A stretch of DNA of 9,479 bases from Methanocorpusculum sp. (GTDB lineage: Archaea; Halobacteriota; Methanomicrobia; Methanomicrobiales; Methanocorpusculaceae): contig JAFZFW010000049.1 of the NCBI GenBank assembly GCA_017555685.1, forward strand, positions 1-9,479. Reading direction: 5' to 3'. The notes under the pieces were generated by a model. It was not told the DNA's origin. It made no database searches and saw only the letters and a list, made by a program, of their open reading frames with translations. Position 1 is the stretch's first letter; each line of letters begins with the position of its first letter. The position numbers and the translations under genes were made by a program. Shown piece by piece: positions 1-9,120 of this stretch.

Positions 1-428
1 CCTCTCGCACTCGCATCCACTGCAGAGCCGCCGGCATCCATTGCCGCAACGCTTCCCGGAACATACGGCACTTCCCCTCCCGGTTCGAGCCAGAGCTCGT
101 GGACTCCGTACTTTCCGGTATCACAGGCACACTCGGTCCAGACAAACTCCTCGTCGACTAACTCCTCAAAGACGTTTCGAAGAACATTGCCGGTTGCTTC
201 CTGATACTCGGAGTAGCCGCAGCCGACAGCCTTTCCCTGTGCAATGAACCGCCAGAACGGAAGATAGAGCAGGTATGTTTCGGTGACGTGAACGTTCTTT
301 GTAAGATCCGGCGCTTTGATACCTTTGGAGAACCACTTCCGGATTGTTTTGTCCGCAACTCCTTTGGTAATCTTTGCCGGATACATGGACTCAACAATCC
401 GGTCTTCCGCCGCCCGTTCAAGAACCAT
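1..428 (-). CDS. Uncharacterised PFW-motif protein, C-terminus cut by window edge
   Basis: An open frame runs leftward from an ATG at 428-426 through the window edge, giving at least 142 codons with no stop, so the gene is partial at its 3' end. I do not recognise the family. The visible part begins MVLERAAEDRIV, carries the aromatic motif LLYLPFWRFIAQG at about residues 53-65, and has a CAC pair at residues 100-102. No membrane segment or signal peptide appears in this part. The start is supported by an SD-like AGGAGG at 440-435, 6 nt before the ATG. The start overlaps the end of the neighbouring minus-strand gene by 11 bp, which suggests translational coupling. The next protein shares the PFW motif, so the two may be distant paralogs or partners. 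Other frames here read as shadows without sensible composition. Function unknown. Confidence 0.72.
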   Translation of the reverse strand, partial: MVLERAAEDRIVESMYPAKITKGVADKTIRKWFSKGIKAPDLTKNVHVTETYLLYLPFWRFIAQGKAVGCGYSEYQEATGNVLRNVFEELVDEEFVWTECACDTGKYGVHELWLEPGGEVPYVPGSVAAMDAGGSAVDASAR

Positions 429-1095
429 TCTCTCCCTCCTTCAGTTTGGTGCTTATGCGCGAGAGCATGCCGCTTTGATAGACGAGGAAGATAACAACTG
501 CCGCGTCCAAGATGAAGAGAGCCGGATGAAGCAGGATGGCAATTAAGCTGATGACAACCAGCGGGATAAAAGCAATAAGAGCAAGCTTTCTCCAGTTTAC
601 CGGCTCTCTAAACGGATGCCATTCCGGAAGAACCGCACCGGTTTCCGCATCGACTTTGAGCATGTAGATGCTTTTGTTTATTTTGTAGCTGATAAGCCAG
701 AAGGGGACAGCAACCAGCCGTTCCCCGCGCGGGAGACCGTAGATATCCGGATAATAGTATTCAGCGCTGATGGTTATTGGAAGGGTGGTGAGGTTTGCCG
801 GAAGCTCTTCAGACGGTGTTCCTGCGCGGGTCAGTTTCTGTAGGTCGGTCATGAGTGTACCGCAGGCCGGACGGTAGATGGTTTTCATCTGTGAGCCGTC
901 TTCGCGGATGAACTCCCAGAATGGATAATAGACCAGAACCGCACGGCCGATACGGTACGATTCTTTGCGGGCGAGGATATTCTGCCCCTCAATCCATTCG
1001 CGGGTGAGCGCTTTTGCCTGCTCTTCGTCTATTTGCGGCAGGAAAGCAGCCCGGACTTCCGGTTTTTCAAAGGCTTTTGGAGGAGTGTCAGCCAT
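418..1095 (-). CDS. Uncharacterised PFW-motif membrane-anchored protein (225 aa)
   Basis: This 225-residue protein belongs to no family I can name. The first ~165 residues are soluble-looking and contain two similar aromatic patches, VLVYYPFWEFI at 53-63 and LVAVPFWLISY at 127-137, suggesting an internal duplication. Two adjacent hydrophobic stretches at about 170-190 and 192-208 look like a transmembrane hairpin, followed by a charged tail. There is no N-terminal signal peptide, so the large N-terminal part may be cytoplasmic; the topology is inference. The ATG at 1095 has no good SD site. The gene is first in a minus-strand unit that continues into the overlapping partial gene at 1-428, and it diverges from pstS across a 177-bp promoter region. 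Nothing in the sequence ties it to phosphate uptake beyond adjacency. Confidence 0.8.
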   Translation of the reverse strand: MADTPPKAFEKPEVRAAFLPQIDEEQAKALTREWIEGQNILARKESYRIGRAVLVYYPFWEFIREDGSQMKTIYRPACGTLMTDLQKLTRAGTPSEELPANLTTLPITISAEYYYPDIYGLPRGERLVAVPFWLISYKINKSIYMLKVDAETGAVLPEWHPFREPVNWRKLALIAFIPLVVISLIAILLHPALFILDAAVVIFLVYQSGMLSRISTKLKEGENGS

Positions 1096-1246: not shown

Positions 1247-1272
1247 GAATCAATTCTAATCTAATTTTGGTT

Positions 1273-2100
1273 ATGACTAAACGTAATTACCAGATTTTAC
1301 AGGGAATTGCCCTTGCAGCAATTCTTCTAACCTCTGTGCTTGCAGCAGGATGCATCAGCACAGAAGATACAGAAACTATCAGTATTGCCGGCTCAACAAC
1401 CGTTCTGCCGGTGGCGCAGGCTGTTGCCGAAGAGTATATGGCACAGAACGCAAACGCAGACATTCAGGTTTCCGGCGGAGGGTCCGGTGTTGGAGCAACC
1501 TCTGCAATCGAAGGTACGGCAGACATCGGCATGCTCTCCCGAGACCTGAAAGCATCTGAAAAAGAAGGAAACAACCTCCGTGAATTCGTAGTCGGAAAAG
1601 ATGGAATTGCTCTCGTTGGCCACCCGTCAAACAGTGTATCTGACCTGACCTTAGAGCAGGTGAAAGCAATTTATCAGGGAAAAATCACCAACTGGAAAGA
1701 AGTCGGCGGAACTGATGCAGAAATCGTCTTAATCGGACGCGACAGTTCCTCGGGCACTCGAGAATTCTTCACTGAGTTCGTCTTAGACAAAGAAGATGCC
1801 GCAAAGAAGATGCAGGAGTTAAACTCCAACGGTGCAGTGGCACAGGCAGTATCGATTACTCCAGGTGCAATCGGCTACGTCTCCTTAGAGTATGTTGATG
1901 ACAGTCTCAAAGCATTCAGTATTGAAGGAGTTGAACCAACTGTGGAAAATGTAATCTCCGGAGCATATGAAATCAATCGCCCACTTCTGATGATTACCAA
2001 CGGAGAACCGGAAGGACTGGCAGCAGATTATCTTGAATTTATTCTCTCCGCAGAAGGACAGATGATTCTCAAAGACAACGGATTCATCCCTGCAGTATAA
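1273..2100 (+). CDS. pstS: PstS, phosphate-binding lipoprotein of the Pst ABC importer
   Basis: Extracytoplasmic phosphate receptor (275 aa) that delivers phosphate to the PstC/PstA permease. A basic N-terminus and hydrophobic stretch are followed by a lipobox-like LAAGC with the candidate lipidated cysteine at residue 27, so it is probably anchored on the outer face of the membrane. Phosphate-contact signatures of the PBP-like family are clear: AGSTTVLP (39-46), SGGGSGVG (67-74) and RDSSSGTREFF (156-166). Its length suits a short-form PstS. I chose the ATG at 1273; a TTG two codons earlier (1267) is in frame but would only add two residues and gains no SD. The gene starts the pst operon, and the permease gene begins 2 nt after its stop. 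Control probably acts through the upstream promoter region. Confidence 0.96.
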   Translation: MTKRNYQILQGIALAAILLTSVLAAGCISTEDTETISIAGSTTVLPVAQAVAEEYMAQNANADIQVSGGGSGVGATSAIEGTADIGMLSRDLKASEKEGNNLREFVVGKDGIALVGHPSNSVSDLTLEQVKAIYQGKITNWKEVGGTDAEIVLIGRDSSSGTREFFTEFVLDKEDAAKKMQELNSNGAVAQAVSITPGAIGYVSLEYVDDSLKAFSIEGVEPTVENVISGAYEINRPLLMITNGEPEGLAADYLEFILSAEGQMILKDNGFIPAV

Positions 2101-2102
2101 TC

Positions 2103-3872
2103 ATGAGCAAAAAAATCAGCTGGAGTGAAAATGGAATGCGCGGAGTGTGGTTCACCTCCGCCCTTTTCGCTTCACTTGCAGTCATTTTTATTTTAGGCTA
2201 TCTCCTGATAACAGCACTCCCTGTATTCTTTGAGGTTGGTCTTACAGGATTTCTCTTCGGAACAGATTGGAATCCAACAGGAACAAATCCATCGTACGGG
2301 ATTGGCGCATTAATTGTCGGAACACTTCTGGTAACAGCAGGTGCAATGCTGTTTTCCGTACCGCTTGGACTGCTGTCTGCCGTCTTTCTTGCCTATGTCG
2401 CACCGAAGAAACTCCGCGATGCAGTAAAACCCGCAATTGAATTGCTGGCCGGCATTCCTTCTGTTGTGTACGGATTTTTCGGCATGCTTGTCCTCTGCAG
2501 TTTCCTGCAGAAGGTATTCGATGTCCCAAGCGGATTCTCATGGGCCGCCGCATCCATTCTGTTAGGAATTATGGCTCTTCCGACTATTGTCTCCATATCA
2601 GAAGACGCACTCTCTGCAGTTCCAAAGGATTTCCGGGAAGCATCCTTAGGGCTTGGAGCAACCAGATTCCAGACAATATCCCGCGTACTCCTGCCGGCAG
2701 CAGCTTCCGGCATCTCCGCAGCAGTTGTTCTTGGAATGGGAAGAGCGCTTGGTGAAACAATGGCAGTAATGATGGTTGCCGGAAACAGTGCGGTGATTCC
2801 ATCACCATTGTGGGATGTACTTTCTCCGATTCGCACCCTTACCGCAACCCTTGGAATTGAACTCGCAGAAGTTTCTGCCGGCTCTATGCACTACTATGCA
2901 TTATTCGGCATAGCAGTTGTCCTCCTGGCAATTACTCTTGCGGTAAACCTTGCATCACGCTTTGTAACCCGCAGAATTGAGACAGGAAAACAGCTCTTTA
3001 CCCTCCCAACATTGCCGGAACTGCCGGTCCGCATCCCCCCGCGGGTTACAGAAAAAATCGCATTTGCCTGCATCTACTTAGGAACATTTGCTGTTCTTGC
3101 AATACTTGCCGTAATCCTTGGAAATATCTTCATCAATGGAATTCCGGCAATATCCTGGGAATTCTTAACAGAATCACCAAAAGATCTGGGAAGAGCCGGC
3201 GGTATTTTCCCGGCGATTGTCGGAACTGTGGAGCTGGTTTTCGGAGCGATTCTTATCGCACTTCCGATTGGTGCAGGTGCTGCAGTATACTTACACGAGT
3301 ATGCAAAGGCCTCTCATATTACTGCAGGTATTCGAACCGGTATTGACCTGCTTTCCGGAACACCGTCTGTCGTATTTGGAGTCTTTGGTTTTGCATTCTT
3401 TGTCATATTCCTTGGATGGGGCATCTGTCTTCTTGCGGGAATGATTTGTCTTGCACTGATGATTCTGCCAACGATTATCAAAACCACAGAAGAGGCGCTC
3501 AAATCAGTTCCGGACTCTCTGAGGGAAGCATCTTTAGGTCTTGGAGCTACAAAAACGCAGACTATCTTCCGGGCAGTCCTGCCGGCAGCAGCCTCGGGAA
3601 TTATCACCGGCGCGGTGCTTTCCCTTGGACGCGCTGCAGGAGAGACCGCCCCTATCATGTTTACCGCAGTTGTCTTCTCCAAGCGGTTCATCACCCCGGA
3701 CCTCTTTGAACCAGTGATGGCTCTCCCCTTCCACCTCTACGTTCTTACGACCAGCGTTCCAAACACCGAACCGCAGCAGTACGCAACTGCTGTGGTGTTA
3801 ATCTGTATGGTGGCAGCCATCTATGTCACCGCGGCAATCCTCCGCAGAAAATTCCAGAGAAATCTCGCATGA
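2103..3872 (+). CDS. pstC/pstA: PstC-PstA fusion permease of the phosphate ABC importer
   Basis: Both permease subunits sit in one 589-residue polypeptide. Residues 1 to ~291 are PstC-like: a start segment with hydrophobic helix, then WNPTG...[24 protein letters not shown] (115-127) and [13 protein letters not shown] (216-228). Residues ~315-589 are PstA-like: [10 protein letters not shown] (366-375), [13 protein letters not shown] (417-429) and AGETAPIMF. Each half has its own EAA coupling loop (167-204 and 463-500) for contacting the PstB ATPase, and about six hydrophobic segments. A hydrophilic, proline-rich linker (about 292-315) joins the halves. The frame is continuous across the junction, with no internal stop. 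The gene lies 2 nt after pstS and overlaps pstB by ATGA, so expression is probably coupled. PstC and PstA are usually separate proteins of about 280-320 aa; fusions do occur. Confidence 0.95.
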
Positions 3873-4618
3873 CAACAATTATTGAAGCAAAACACGTAAA
3901 CCTCTTCTACGGACAGAAGCAGGTTCTCTTCGACGTTACCTTTCCCTTCGAGGAAAACGCAGTTACCGCATTAATCGGACCATCAGGATGTGGAAAATCC
4001 ACCCTGCTTCGTTGTATGAACAGAATGAATGATTTAGTCCCGAACTGCCGGGTAGAGGGAGAACTGCTCTTCAAAGGAAAGAGCATCCGGAATGAAGATC
4101 CGGTCTCTCTTCGGAAACAGATTGGCATGGTGTTTCAAAGACCGAACCCATTCCCGAAGTCCATCTACGAAAACATTGCCTATGGACCAAAAGTTCACGG
4201 AATCAAAAATAAGAATACTCTTGATGATATCGTTGAGGAATGTCTAAAAAAGGCAGTCCTCTATGACGAAGTAAAAGACCGGCTGCATGATTCCGCGCTT
4301 GGTCTTTCCGGCGGACAGCAGCAGAGACTCTGTATCGCAAGAAGTCTTGCGGTAAACCCAGAGGTTATCTTAATGGATGAGCCCTGCTCGGCGCTTGACC
4401 CGATTGCAACAGCAAAGATTGAAAACCTCATTGCAGACCTCAAGAAGGAATACACTGTCCTGATTGTGACGCACAGCATGCAGCAGGCAGCCCGTGTTTC
4501 TGATGTAACGGGTTTCCTGTACATGGGAAAACTTATCGAATACGGCGAGACACCGCAGATTTTCTCCAGTCCGCAGGATGAACTCACCGAGAAATATATT
4601 ACAGGAAGATTTGGATGA
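3869..4618 (+). CDS. pstB: PstB, ATPase of the phosphate ABC importer
   Basis: This cytoplasmic ATP-binding subunit (249 aa) drives phosphate import. All ABC ATPase motifs are intact: Walker [10 protein letters not shown] (37-45), Q-loop Q90 in [16 protein letters not shown] (typical of PstB), signature LSGGQQQR (146-153), Walker B VILMDEP (166-172), D-loop SALD and H-loop His202. CMNRMNDL just after Walker A is also typical of PstB. The length is normal for the family. The start ATG overlaps the TGA of the permease gene (ATGA), and its own stop overlaps phoU in the same way, so the four genes form one operon. A homodimer of PstB probably serves the two EAA loops of the fused permease. Confidence 0.98.
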
Positions 4619-5268
4619 GCGACCATTTCCACACTGAACTTGCGTCCTTCAAAGATGAGGTCATCTGGTACGGACGTTTTGCCCTTGATGTTCTGAAAAA
4701 TTCCATCTCTGCTTTCGAAACAGGAGATGAAATAATTGCCGCAAATCTGATTCGGCAGAAGACCTATGTTTCATCGCAGTACGAGATGCTCTATGCAAAA
4801 GGGATTCTTCTGATTGCCTTGCATCAGCCGATGGCTGCAGACCTCCGGCTTATCTCCTGCTCGATGGATGTAGTAACTTCGTCAGAGCGTATCGGACGGT
4901 ACGGAAAAGACATCGCAGAGCTGGTGTCATCAGAGGAGAACTCCCTTCCAGCAAAACTGCATGAGATGGGAGAGCTGGCCGGGATGATTCTGGAGAATGT
5001 CTACAATGTCTTTGAATCCGGAGACCTAACGCTTCTGCAGAATTGTGCAGAAATTGAGGACAGAGTTGACAGTCTGTATAAGGAGATCTATGCAGAACTT
5101 ATCGCAGAGATGGATGAGCGCAAACTTTCTGCAGCCTTCGGCTCAGCATGCCTTATGGTGAACCGATATCTGGAACGCTGTTCTGACCATGCATGCAGAA
5201 TGGGCGAAAAGATGTATTACTCACAGACAGGAAAGCATATTCCGCTTTCTGAGATGAAGAAAAATTGA
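4615..5268 (+). CDS. phoU: PhoU, phosphate transport/signalling regulator
   Basis: A 217-residue cytoplasmic protein with the two tandem three-helix PhoU repeats, about residues 8-110 and 115-205. PhoU proteins restrain the Pst transporter and signal phosphate status; in bacteria they act with PhoR/PhoB, but no two-component partner is visible here. The metal-binding helices read [12 protein letters not shown] (91-102) in repeat 1 and [12 protein letters not shown] (187-198) in repeat 2. Position 95 is Arg where bacterial proteins usually have Asp; I believe this is common in archaeal PhoU. The start ATG overlaps the pstB stop (ATGA), with a weak AGGA upstream. As last gene of the operon it is followed within a few bases by a hairpin terminator. 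Confidence 0.95.
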
Positions 5269-5300: not shown

Positions 5301-5486
5301 TTATAAACCGAGCTTTGCTGCGAGTTCTTCTAATGGGATTCCGTGAACCATTGCTGCTTCGCGGATGGTTTCGTTGTTTGCGATTGCACAACCGAGGCAT
5401 CCCATACCAAAGCTCTGGAGGACTGCTGCGCTTTCCGGCTTCTCACGGAGGAGGTCGGCGATAGTGGAATCTAAAGTAATTGCCAT
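5301..5486 (-). CDS. DUF1858 / hybrid-cluster-protein-associated CxxC protein
   Basis: This 61-residue protein fits the DUF1858 family, also described as the hybrid-cluster-protein-associated redox disulfide domain (TIGR03980-like). It shows the typical short helical start (TIADLLREKPESAAVLQSF), the central GMGCLGC with Cys30 and Cys33, then ETIREAA and the closing helix PLEELAAKLGL. The CxxC pair could form a redox disulfide, carry a persulfide or bind metal; the biochemical role of the family is poorly known. The protein is small, soluble and presumably cytoplasmic. It lies 49 nt downstream of the TauE-like gene on the same strand, with its own likely promoter, so it can be expressed separately from that operon. 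The sulfur link to its neighbours is inference. Confidence 0.9.
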   Translation of the reverse strand: MAITLDSTIADLLREKPESAAVLQSFGMGCLGCAIANNETIREAAMVHGIPLEELAAKLGL

Positions 5487-5532: not shown

Positions 5533-5546
5533 CCCTCAAAAGAGGG
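5533..5546 (-). terminator. Small hairpin over the TauE-family gene stop codon
   Basis: CCCTC (5533-5537) and GAGGG (5542-5546) form a perfect 5-bp stem with an AAAA loop (TTTT on the transcript), overlapping the stop codon of the permease gene. No T-run follows directly, so termination is uncertain. It may instead protect a 3' end or be chance. Confidence 0.25.
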
Positions 5547-6318
5547 ACAGTATCCACTCAAAAACCCCGAGCATATGAAGCGAAATGCCAAACATCAGAA
5601 CCGCAAACATCCGCCGGAGAAGTACATCCGGCACGCGGGAACTGAATTTTGCCGAGAGCGCTGCCGCGGGGACTGCTGTTACTACTAAAATCACCCACAT
5701 CGGCAGGTCAAAGTAGCCGTTTAAGAGGTAGGAACCAATACCGCCTATGGTGATGAACACGATAGCCGCAGAGGAGGTGGCAACAGCTTTTTTCATCGGG
5801 AACTTTCCAAGCATCGTCATAAGCGGCACTAATATCGTCCCGCCGCCGACGCCGAGAAGCCCTGAGAAGAATCCTGCAAGACTGCCGATTCCTGCCGCAA
5901 GCGGGGCTTTCATGCAGGTCTGTTCTCCGCACGGGAGCGCGGTTATCAGACGAATCGCTCCGAAGATTAAGAGAAGAGCGAAAAGAACCGTCAGAACTTT
6001 TACCGGGAGAAGCGTTGCCGCATTTCCACCGATAAAGCCCGTAATGATTCCGGCAAAACCCATGATAAGTGCATCACGCCAGACCACATTCCCCTGCTTC
6101 GTATGCGAAAGAGCGCCGGTTAAAACCGTGGGCAGAGCCGCGGCCAGACTCGTCCCGAATGCGGTAAGAAGTGCAGTATCCACAGGGATGCCTGCAGCCT
6201 GCAGAACGAAAAACATCGCCGGGGCAAACACAAATCCGCCGCCGACACCAAGCATGCCGGACATACATCCGGCAAAAAGACCGACTGCGATGAGAAAAAG
6301 AATGAAGAGGATATCCAT
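5536..6318 (-). CDS. TauE/SafE (DUF81) family membrane permease
   Basis: A 260-residue polytopic membrane protein with about eight hydrophobic segments. The family signature appears twice, once per half: GMLGVGGGFVFAPAM (21-35) and GLLGVGGGTILVPLM (153-167). This matches the duplicated fold of the TauE/SafE family, whose members export or import small anions such as sulfite, sulfoacetate or thiosulfate. The substrate here cannot be read from sequence. A loop between the halves carries two cysteines (C130 and C135 in PCGEQTC). The start ATG shares one base with the stop of the radical SAM gene (TAATG on the minus strand), so the two are probably translationally coupled in the pscS operon. That setting makes a sulfur compound a reasonable substrate guess, but no more. 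Confidence 0.9.
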   Translation of the reverse strand: MDILFILFLIAVGLFAGCMSGMLGVGGGFVFAPAMFFVLQAAGIPVDTALLTAFGTSLAAALPTVLTGALSHTKQGNVVWRDALIMGFAGIITGFIGGNAATLLPVKVLTVLFALLLIFGAIRLITALPCGEQTCMKAPLAAGIGSLAGFFSGLLGVGGGTILVPLMTMLGKFPMKKAVATSSAAIVFITIGGIGSYLLNGYFDLPMWVILVVTAVPAAALSAKFSSRVPDVLLRRMFAVLMFGISLHMLGVFEWILSLF

Positions 6319-7424
6319 TACGGGATAATCTCACAGCCGTTGTAGCGCGTGTGTGCAAAGCTTTCAAGCGAGAGCACACCGGAATCAAGAAGCGATGCAA
6401 TCTCCGGGAGCACAGCCTCAAGAGAACTCTTGAGGTTTCTGACGGTATCGCAGACAAGCGAGTACTCTTCTCCCCACGGACGTACGATATTCGAGTAGAG
6501 ACAGCGCCCTCCGCAGAAGTCATAGATGTCGCAGGAAAGACACGGCTCGCCAATCGGAATCTCCGGCAGATTGTTCGGGTCTGCATCACGAATGTGACCG
6601 GCGTAGTAGTCTGCCATACCAACCATAATCGGGCACGGTGCAACAAAGCCGTTGGTCATGATGCTGTAGTTCACATATCCTGACCCGCAGCGAAGCTTCG
6701 TCTTCTGTCCGGTTAAGAGATCCTCGGTTGTCGAAAGGAACGGATACCATTTCGGAACGGTTCCGGACTGCATCCGGGATACCCACTCCTTTGCAAGGCG
6801 GGCGATTCCGGCGTTGTATCCGTTCTTCCATTCCGCAAAGCGTCTGCGGGATAAGTCGCCGGTAAAGTCTGCATCCATCTGCCAGTGGATGGAACTGAAA
6901 AGACCCGTATCTGCAAGATGGGTAACTGCCTCGAATATTTCGGTATCTTCGGCAATCGTCATGCGGGCGATGAGCTCTCCGGTAAATCCGCCCTCACGGA
7001 TTTTGCGGGCCGCATTCGTTACGGTCTCATAGACGCCTGCTCCGCGGTGGCCGTTGGTTAATGCCGCATCTCCGTCGATGGAGATGAGGATGGTTTCCAG
7101 GCGGTTAATGTAGGATGCTCCAAGCTCTAAGAGCAGCGTGCCGTTTGTCTGGAGCATGAAGCGTTTAACCGGCGCTTCGTCCATCACCTGCTGAACGAAG
7201 GGGATGTTTAAGAGCGGCTCTCCGCCGATGAAGGTCAGAACTGCATCGGCATCCTTTGCGAGGAAGGCATAGAGATCGGCCTTCCCGCAGGAGAAGTGTT
7301 CGGTGATGGTCTCGTCAATGGTTCCCGGAGAGCCTGCCGGCTCATCCTCTTCATCGAACATCTTTGCCCGGCAGTACGAACAGCAGAGGTTGCAGTCGTC
7401 TGTTACCATCAGATGGTAAAACAT
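6318..7424 (-). CDS. Radical SAM/SPASM enzyme, AF0577-like putative peptide modifier
   Basis: This 368-residue radical SAM enzyme has the N-terminal cluster motif CX3CX2C (C11, C15, C18, with an extra C14), and GGEP at 67-70 for SAM binding. A full SPASM-type C-terminal cysteine set follows: C246, C264, C295, C298, C304, C308 and C325, spaced CX2CX5CX3C in the core. It should therefore bind the SAM-cleaving [4Fe-4S] cluster plus auxiliary clusters. The opening MFYHLMVTDDCNL and overall length fit the AF0577 family (TIGR04084), predicted to modify peptides, with unknown substrate. No short cysteine-rich precursor is visible next to it. It starts 2 nt after the pscS stop with no SD, and overlaps the permease gene by one base, so it is a mid-operon gene. 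Family assignment is from memory of the pattern, not a search. Confidence 0.9.
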   Translation of the reverse strand: MFYHLMVTDDCNLCCSYCRAKMFDEEDEPAGSPGTIDETITEHFSCGKADLYAFLAKDADAVLTFIGGEPLLNIPFVQQVMDEAPVKRFMLQTNGTLLLELGASYINRLETILISIDGDAALTNGHRGAGVYETVTNAARKIREGGFTGELIARMTIAEDTEIFEAVTHLADTGLFSSIHWQMDADFTGDLSRRRFAEWKNGYNAGIARLAKEWVSRMQSGTVPKWYPFLSTTEDLLTGQKTKLRCGSGYVNYSIMTNGFVAPCPIMVGMADYYAGHIRDADPNNLPEIPIGEPCLSCDIYDFCGGRCLYSNIVRPWGEEYSLVCDTVRNLKSSLEAVLPEIASLLDSGVLSLESFAHTRYNGCEIIP

Positions 7425-7426
7425 GG

Positions 7427-8608
7427 TTACTGGATGGTAAGGCCGTTGGTCTCGGCGATTTCGAGATAGGTGTCTGCGACGTATTCGGCCTGCTTTCTGG
7501 TCATGCCGTAGGTGTTGATCTTCCAGACCTTGGTGGCTCCCGGAATAATGCCGGTGATGCCTTTCTTGGATAAGGCAGAGGAGAGGAAGAATCCGCGCTT
7601 CTTGTGGGTCTGTGCAACGACGTCGAAGGAGCCGGTGGTATCTAAGCGGGTTAAGGTGTGCTGTCTCGGCATCTCGGAGAGAATCTTGGTTCCCTCAATA
7701 GAGGCAAGTGCGTCGATGACAATCTTGCTGTTTGCAAGCTCTTCATCGAAGTGTTTGACTCTTTCCTTGACAGTCGGGAAGGATGCGAGCAGTCCGACGA
7801 TTGGTGCACCCATTAAGGAACAGCCAAGGATGCCGACTTCCTTGATTCCGAAGCGGCGTCCGGTTAAGTCTCCTTCCATCTGGGTGGTGCGGAAGACTTC
7901 GTCTGCTCTTTCTTCGGTTGCGGCAAGGATTCCGGACGGTGCCGGAGCAGCCATACTCTTGTGTCCGGAACCGATGATGAAGTCGACGCCTAAGTCTTTT
8001 CCGTTGACAGGCATGATACCTACCGTGTAGACACCATTGTAGAGAACCGGAATGTCGTACTGGTGTGCGACTTTGGCGATGCCTTTTACATCGTGCATGT
8101 TTCCGTACTGGTAGTCCACGTGGTCGATGTAGAGGAGTTTCGGCGGTCTGCCGAACTCGGTGATGACGTCTTCGATTCTCTCTGCGGCTGCTTCGGCGGT
8201 GATGTGGTTGTCTGCAGTCTTTGGAATCTCACGGACGATACCCTGCTGAATCTCGACAGAGAGGTAGGAGGTATAGTGTGCAAGAGCGCCGATTAAGACC
8301 GGATCGCCTTTTTCAACGTAGGTTCCGGCGACCTGCTGGAATCCGCGGCGTGCTCCCGGGACGGTTCTTGCCTGCCCCATACCGAGCCACTCTGCCATGT
8401 CGACATGGAAGTCCTTTAACGGCGGCTGTTCGATGTAGTCGAGGCGGAACGGCTTTTTGCATGCGTCACAAACGGAGTAACCGTCTCCCCAGGAAATCAT
8501 GGCTTTCATTGCTTCCGGAGTTAAACGGCCGCCGACCTGAATCGGGTCAAGGTTGATGGCAGTTTCATCCCGCATGCGGGCATCGACGTTGCATGCTCCG
8601 CACTTCAT
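7427..8608 (-). CDS. pscS: Sep-tRNA:Cys-tRNA synthase (SepCysS), PLP-dependent
   Basis: Converts O-phosphoseryl-tRNA(Cys) to cysteinyl-tRNA(Cys) using a sulfur donor, the second step of tRNA-dependent cysteine synthesis in methanogens and Archaeoglobus. The 393-residue protein is a fold-type I PLP enzyme; GSGHKSMAAPAPSG (213-226) holds the probable PLP lysine K217. The three cysteines implicated in sulfur transfer in characterised SepCysS are recognisable as C47 and C50 (SVCDAC) and C263 (GILGCSLMG). INLDPIQVGGRLTPEAM (18-34) is typical of the family. An additional N-terminal CGAC (C3, C6) gives the first 50 residues a two-CxxC, zinc-ribbon-like look. The start is fixed by the SD GAGGTGA at 8621-8615 and overlaps the stop of the 59-aa gene (ATGA). 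SepRS, which makes the substrate, is not in the window. Confidence 0.96.
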   Translation of the reverse strand: MKCGACNVDARMRDETAINLDPIQVGGRLTPEAMKAMISWGDGYSVCDACKKPFRLDYIEQPPLKDFHVDMAEWLGMGQARTVPGARRGFQQVAGTYVEKGDPVLIGALAHYTSYLSVEIQQGIVREIPKTADNHITAEAAAERIEDVITEFGRPPKLLYIDHVDYQYGNMHDVKGIAKVAHQYDIPVLYNGVYTVGIMPVNGKDLGVDFIIGSGHKSMAAPAPSGILAATEERADEVFRTTQMEGDLTGRRFGIKEVGILGCSLMGAPIVGLLASFPTVKERVKHFDEELANSKIVIDALASIEGTKILSEMPRQHTLTRLDTTGSFDVVAQTHKKRGFFLSSALSKKGITGIIPGATKVWKINTYGMTRKQAEYVADTYLEIAETNGLTIQ

Positions 8609-8784
8609 AAGAGCTCACCTCTCAGGATGGCAATCTGCTTTTCCACGGATGCAAGGGCTTTTTCGACTTTCTTTTTCTGCTCCTCGTCTAATTCATGAGT
8701 CGGTGCGGTGATTCTAAGTATTGAACGGATATCGGTCAGGGAGAATAATCCCTGAAATACGGCGTCTGCGGCACGCTGAGACAT
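8605..8784 (-). CDS. Uncharacterised 59-aa helical protein coupled to pscS
   Basis: A short frame, ATG at 8784-8782 to TGA at 8607-8605, encodes 59 residues beginning MSQRAADAVFQGLFSL. I do not recognise it. Residues 1-26 look like a mixed helix (FQGLFSLTDIRSILRI). Residues 31-59 are highly charged with regularly spaced Leu, Val and Ile (V40, A44, V47, I51, L54), consistent with an amphipathic helix or short coiled coil, so a protein-binding role is plausible. There are no cysteines or membrane segments. Its stop overlaps the pscS start (ATGA), and the pscS SD lies inside its last codons, so the two should be co-translated. A TATA-like box at 8812-8820 fits a leaderless start. A distant analogue of the SepCysE helical domain is one possibility, unproven. 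Confidence 0.72.
   Translation of the reverse strand: MSQRAADAVFQGLFSLTDIRSILRITAPTHELDEEQKKKVEKALASVEKQIAILRGELL
8612..8622 (-). promoter_or_regulatory. Strong Shine-Dalgarno site of pscS inside the 59-aa gene
   Basis: On the minus strand GAGGTGA (8621-8615) stands 6 nt before the pscS ATG, a 7-base match to the archaeal anti-SD. It lies in the last codons of the 59-aa gene, supporting both the pscS start and translational coupling. Confidence 0.7.
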
Positions 8785-8811: not shown

Positions 8812-8820
8812 GAATATATT
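8812..8820 (-). promoter_or_regulatory. TATA-like box for the pscS operon
   Basis: AATATATTC on the minus strand (8820-8812) lies 28-36 nt upstream of the ATG of the 59-aa gene, which has no SD. A transcript starting about 26 nt downstream would begin just before this ATG. A second TATATA-like patch at 8788-8794 is too close to serve this start. Confidence 0.4.
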
Positions 8821-8877
8821 GGTTAGGCTGGCTTTATCCCAAACAGGAAGTGCTCTGTATTCTCCGGGATAGATGGA

Positions 8878-9089
8878 GATAGAACACAGACCACACAGAC
8901 GCTCCCTTCGGTCGCAGCAACGCGTCGCTCTCGCCTTCGGCGAGCTGCTGCCGCAGCCGCTTTAGCGTTGCTTGATGTTGTAAGAAATATTTAGCGACCA
9001 CAAAGCGTCTGCGGCAGCAGGTCTGAGCGTAGCGAAGACAGCGACTGGTCGCTGCGCCATAGGCGCGTCTGTGTGGTCTGTGTTTTATC
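8878..9089. repeat. 212-bp palindromic multi-hairpin element (MITE-like or structured RNA)
   Basis: Outer arms of 25 bp, with one mismatch, bound the element: 8878-8902 pairs with 9065-9089, including 20 perfect pairs at 8883-8902 with 9065-9084. A second nested pair of arms matches at 18 of 19 positions (8945-8963 with 9002-9020). Smaller perfect hairpins lie between them: CTCGCC-TTC-GGCGAG (8930-8944), AGCGAC-TG-GTCGCT (9040-9053) and GCGCC-ATA-GGCGC (9054-9066). AGCAACGC (8916-8923) also matches GCGTTGCT (8965-8972). No convincing coding sequence or target-site duplication is present. It lies between the acyl-CoA synthetase gene and the promoter of the pscS operon. It could be a dispersed repeat, a non-autonomous mobile element or an RNA; sequence alone does not decide. 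Confidence 0.7.
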
Positions 9090-9120
9090 CAAGTACACTC
9101 AAACACCTGCAAACGATTCA

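Follow-up and report, generated by a model that had tools for sequence, protein, structure and literature searches.

What does a reading frame of 59 codons do directly in front of the gene for SepCysS, and does its product link SepCysS to other components of cysteine coding or serve SepCysS alone? The question is raised by a contig of 9,479 nucleotides from Methanocorpusculum sp. (JAFZFW010000049.1, assembly GCA_017555685.1; here called the window). On its reverse strand, an open reading frame (ORF) with an ATG start and a TGA stop (8605..8784) overlaps by the four bases ATGA (8605..8608) the start of pscS (7427..8608), encoding the 393-amino acid SepCysS, O-phosphoseryl-tRNA:Cys-tRNA synthase (NF006810, E 4.9e-176; TIGR02539 over the cut-off). 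In our reading, to which we assign a probability of about 0.84, the product is SepCysSn, i.e., the SepCysS-binding hairpin of SepCysE without the N-helix and the tRNA domain, and it is likely bound to the SepCysS dimer encoded by the overlapping gene. The assignment as a SepCysSn-like gene is based on the ORF and its conservation, substitution rates, an AlphaFold2 model and the alignment of its profile with that of the SepCysE N-terminal domain.

A conserved gene overlapping SepCysS

The ORF is present in the genome of the window, which is 69% complete, and in all 60 relatives searched, so that 61 of 61 genomes and 17 of 17 genera carry it. Ratios of non-synonymous to synonymous substitution rates (dN/dS, NG86) between the window and its same-genus orthologues range from 0.056 to 0.116 for the 12 of the 21 orthologues with computable dS, the other nine being saturated. 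The mean pN/pS is 0.22 over 231 pairs, with values of 0.37–3.1 in the five other frames, and variable sites at codon positions 1, 2 and 3 number 35, 17 and 58 of 59. Because of this presence in all genomes searched, these ratios and the codon-position pattern, the frame is a real, conserved gene under coding selection. A sequence-only reading of the window had proposed such a gene with its stop overlapping the pscS start, and had named lack of conservation or equal rates of the two classes of change as arguments against it; the frame is found in every genome and the rates are far from equal.

The four-base overlap is seen in 18 of the 21 same-genus copy-1 loci, the window counted in, and in the other three the stop of the small gene lies 2 nucleotides ahead of the SepCysS start. 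A TATA-like box had also been noticed upstream: ATATAT (8814..8819, reverse strand), a candidate promoter, is located approximately 30 nucleotides 5′ of the ATG. The hexamer itself varies among relatives, although the surrounding AACC...TTC.TCTTTT block is retained in the closest ones.

Homology to the SepCysE N-terminal domain

Single-sequence searches of Pfam, NCBIfam and the PDB left the family unsettled. The lone sequence matched DUF2100, the SepCysE family, at E 0.013, below the cut-off; its PDB match to MJ1481 had an E of 0.059. Five of 24 rows of relatives carry an NCBI name, all of them Methanocorpusculum; four are labelled hypothetical protein and one DUF2100 domain-containing. A search of the PDB with a profile of the domain (A1) had unrelated coiled coils on top.

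Direct comparison of profiles was more informative. The SepCysE set consisted of 30 sequences from a Methanocaldococcus contig and from genomes of its phylum, presumably class I methanogens. With hhalign, A1 matched this set with a score of 28.7 and a probability of 51%, residues 7–52 being placed onto SepCysE 50–95, while the best of 200 column shuffles reached 17.4 and 2.1%. The domain occurs both as a separate gene and fused in frame to SepCysS; the 18 split rows alone gave 34.0 and 79%, the seven fused rows alone 12.4 and 0.3%, and split rows compared with fused rows 97%. Most split rows share a turn motif, AP.H.L, which has a similar form in the SepCysE rows. All 36 genomes searched from the Methanocaldococcus phylum have full SepCysE over the cut-off, and neither full SepCysE nor DUF2100 was found over the cut-off in any of 100 Halobacteriota genomes. 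Below the cut-off, these Halobacteriota genomes gave 21 DUF2100 matches in 17 genomes, and in three of them (G084, G093, G100; E 0.002–0.04) the model unaided landed on what was later found to be the fused domain.

AlphaFold2, using an alignment of 24 close sequences, predicts a two-helix hairpin (helices 3–26 and 34–58; mean predicted local distance difference test score 95.4), in line with the helical protein suggested from the sequence. The top five rows of a Foldseek search of the PDB with this model are all Methanocaldococcus jannaschii SepCysE (E 0.17–0.27, probability 1.00), and the next row has an E of 1.2. The root mean square deviation of the SepCysE rows is 5.5 Å in four and 1.0 Å over 45 columns in one. 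The VIA alignment places the model on SepCysE 42–99 with 1.9 Å over 58 residues, but its Z equals that of unrelated hairpins and is therefore not discriminating. Judged by these comparisons the protein qualifies as a homologue of the SepCysE N-terminal domain. The relationship to that domain, raised earlier as a conjecture, is supported by a profile match that beats the shuffles, from the five Foldseek rows and from the DUF2100 name on a relative.

Another affiliation was indicated by PF09278 (MerR-DNA-bind, E 0.013) and by a weak PDB match to the regulator 1q08 (E 0.48 and 0.077): the protein might be a small MerR-type DNA-binding or dimerisation helix regulating pscS. However, the Pfam match scores 16.6 bits against a curated cut-off of 25.4, none of the 50 Foldseek rows listed bears the name of a MerR entry, and in other copies the domain is fused to SepCysS. 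We regard such a regulator as very improbable.

Split and fused forms

In the 61 genomes, the 5′ ends of 85 SepCysS genes could be read, and the domain is present at all of them, encoded separately in 72 and fused in frame in 13. The domain model for this count (A1) had been built partly from the same sequences. One of the 13 is a truncated fused frame of 193 amino acids (G043:C3). Both forms occur together in 12 genomes and two split pairs in 11.

The sequence-only reading had tied the gene to pscS, and in a wider set of 246 Halobacteriota genomes the domain does keep this position. A1 gave 127 matches in 102 genomes, of which 123 lie directly 5′ of SepCysS (114 from listed rows and nine of 13 further matches that were fetched). 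By frame length these are 60 split and 63 fused; under this criterion the truncated G043 frame falls among the split ones. SepCysS was found in 189 of the genomes and the domain in 102, so that many SepCysS proteins of other lineages are without it; among the matches listed, at least 44 SepCysS have no domain match. Two of the four exceptions (G156:C130 and G254:C125; frames of 85 and 69 amino acids, L194 and L196) are extra free copies of the domain that lie 0.5 and 3.7 kb 5′ of a domain-SepCysS fusion, which we read as local duplication. The third, a 38-amino acid frame (G198:C191), adjoins a C-terminal piece of SepCysS, and the fourth (G241:C179, E 2.9e-4), with ferritin-like and gyrB-like neighbours as judged by eye, may match by chance.

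Distances between domains correlate with distances between the SepCysS proteins (Spearman 0.75; 76 pairs from 57 genomes). Of the 38 domain copies in 19 two-copy genomes, all track their own SepCysS line and not the paralogue. Linkage alone could be sufficient to produce both the correlation and the tracking.

SepRS and the question of a tether

SepRS was found in 57 of the 61 genomes and CysRS in four, in one of them over the cut-off; therefore most of these genomes have no apparent source of Cys-tRNA other than the SepRS/SepCysS pathway. According to the structural work on the M. jannaschii proteins, the SepCysE N-helix (residues 1–24) inserts between the SepRS subunits, the N-terminal domain that binds SepCysS comprises residues 35–101, and the C-terminal domain holds the tRNA (PMC5688128). 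The window protein has the second of these parts only. Its match to SepCysE begins at residue 50 in sequence and 42 in structure, past the N-helix and the linker, and the protein ends at 59 amino acids, directly after the hairpin, where the Toprim-like tRNA-binding C-terminal domain is absent. Four orthologues of the same genus have an open frame of only 60 codons, and there is no room for an N-helix because a stop directly precedes the start.

Since loss of the tether would free SepRS from keeping its docking loops, these loops were compared between two sets of 30 sequences, one from the order of the window and one from the Methanocaldococcus phylum (the sequences over the cut-off numbered 34 in one case and 56 in the other; one row, L268, is apparently mis-translated). 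Of six residues that are conserved on the Methanocaldococcus side in the three loops holding the N-helix in M. jannaschii, the consensus for the order of the window keeps one, compared with 51 of 102 in the C-terminal part of SepRS; the test is small and carries no significance value. In the same consensus the FNGE loop is shorter by three residues. The docking loops are variable on the Methanocaldococcus side as well. Judged from these alignments, the changes agree with loss of the tether.

These results bear on the idea of the sequence-only reading that the protein is a minimal counterpart of SepCysE. Taken literally, it would be a true mini-scaffold that links SepCysS to SepRS or tRNA via a new surface and forms a transsulfursome without SepCysE. 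SepRS is there to be linked in nearly all of the genomes, and the cell would still benefit from channelled Sep-tRNA. On the other hand, the single predicted hairpin fills all 59 amino acids, leaving neither N-helix nor C-terminal domain, and the SepRS loops that would receive the former are mostly not kept. We consider a mini-scaffold improbable. What stands of the counterpart idea is the homology to the N-terminal domain; bridging of SepRS and SepCysS in the known way does not.

Proposed role of SepCysSn

We therefore return to SepCysSn as a subunit of SepCysS only, which is inferred because the window protein retains just the N-terminal domain among the three parts of SepCysE. In the M. jannaschii complex, a dimer of this domain sits on the SepCysS dimer with the two-fold axes aligned (PMC5688128). 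By analogy, a SepCysS dimer might be held in a clamp of two SepCysSn copies. Owing to the ATGA overlap, ribosomes translating the pair would be able to produce both subunits together. The clamp may help the SepCysS dimer to assemble or to remain active; as the benefit we infer assembly, stability or activity of SepCysS. SepCysSn would tether neither SepRS nor tRNA, since it lacks the N-helix and the C-terminal domain and since the docking loops of SepRS have changed.

A broader picture can be sketched tentatively, and we hold it at somewhat below even odds. The transsulfursome of Methanomicrobiales may have been dismantled on both sides, SepRS losing the docking loops and SepCysE being reduced to a hairpin that became an obligate subunit of SepCysS. 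The core task of the N-terminal domain would then be a working SepCysS and not tethering, and Sep-tRNA-Cys would pass from one enzyme to the other without a scaffold, in cells of which most lack CysRS. In any case the gene is likely a constant part of the cysteine-coding machinery in these archaea, and its constancy without tethers for SepRS or tRNA raises the question whether the SepCysE N-terminal domain exists for tethering two enzymes or for sustaining SepCysS.

Gene run and other features of the window

On the same strand SepCysS is followed by a radical SAM/SPASM enzyme assigned to TIGR04084 by profile search (6318..7424) and then by a TauE/SafE family transporter (5536..6318; PF01925, E 2.6e-48). 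This order, starting from the small gene, was found in the window and in all nine other same-genus copy-1 loci examined. Within approximately 4–5 kb downstream, the enzyme and the transporter were absent from both copy-2 pairs and from all nine loci of other genera. The term TIGR04084 was not met in the literature searched. The profile neighbours of TIGR04084 are peptide maturases. The 59-amino acid protein could be thought of as a peptide substrate of the enzyme, given that the two are encoded together in the window and in the other nine copy-1 loci. However, cysteine is absent from the protein, 13 of the 85 SepCysS copies have the domain fused to them, and the copy-2 pairs and other-genus loci keep the small gene with no such enzyme found nearby. 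A substrate role is thus scarcely credible, and SepCysSn remains the preferred assignment.

Located 93 nucleotides 5′ of the SepCysSn start is a palindromic element of approximately 212 bp (8878..9089) with 28-nucleotide terminal inverted repeats that are 93% complementary. Its predicted fold is very stable, at −130 kcal/mol for 8870..9100 (z −10). Seven further contigs of this genome carry full or partial copies, the best being 86% identical over 208 bp, and Rfam gave no match. The element looks like a repeat of the miniature inverted-repeat transposable element type.

Phosphate-uptake-like genes occupy 1267..5268 on the forward strand and encode a PBP-like protein, a permease, an ABC ATPase and a PhoU-domain protein; the permease, of 589 amino acids, has two permease units in a single chain. 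Directly after the SepCysSn run there is a reverse-strand gene (5301..5486) for a 61-amino acid protein with a DUF1858/hybrid-cluster-protein-associated redox disulfide domain, and one of the nine other same-genus copy-1 loci examined has this gene behind the run. Two overlapping reverse-strand ORFs, 3..428 (142 amino acids, open at the window end) and 418..1095 (225 amino acids), had no Pfam match at E 0.001.

Comparison with known systems

Similarly to SepCysE (MJ1481, DUF2100; PDB 3wkr, 3wks, 5x6b and 5x6c), the window protein has the N-terminal domain hairpin and an AP.H.L-like turn motif. Unlike SepCysE, it has neither the SepRS-binding N-helix nor the tRNA-binding C-terminal domain, and it is 59 amino acids long compared with 216. 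The interface between SepCysE and SepCysS is reportedly the subject of a paper by Liu and co-workers in PNAS in 2014.

Closest to the window protein are SepCysSn and its fused form SepCysSN, names that appear in the main text of two papers (Mukai et al., 2017, PMC5424206; and a paper of 2022, PMC8762117); in the literature searched, SepCysSn as a term occurs in these two only. The gene was called undescribed in the sequence-only reading, a label that fails because it belongs to this named kind. SepCysSn is defined as preceding a SepCysS of clade VII, or of a few of clades I and VI, and the argument for its binding to SepCysS is its homology to the domain of SepCysE that binds SepCysS (PMC8762117). 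The window gene sits separately and directly 5′ of SepCysS, as the definition of SepCysSn requires. The main text of PMC5424206 contains no Methanomicrobi-, Methanocorpusculum, Methanospirillum or Methanoculleus, and that of PMC8762117 no Methanomicrobiales; the figures or supplements of both may well show the lineage. No essential difference between the window protein and SepCysSn/SepCysSN (PMC5424206, PMC8762117) was found. What is added here is the order-wide linkage to SepCysS at 85 of 85 readable ends, the finding that a single genome can hold both the split and the fused form, and the changed loops of SepRS.
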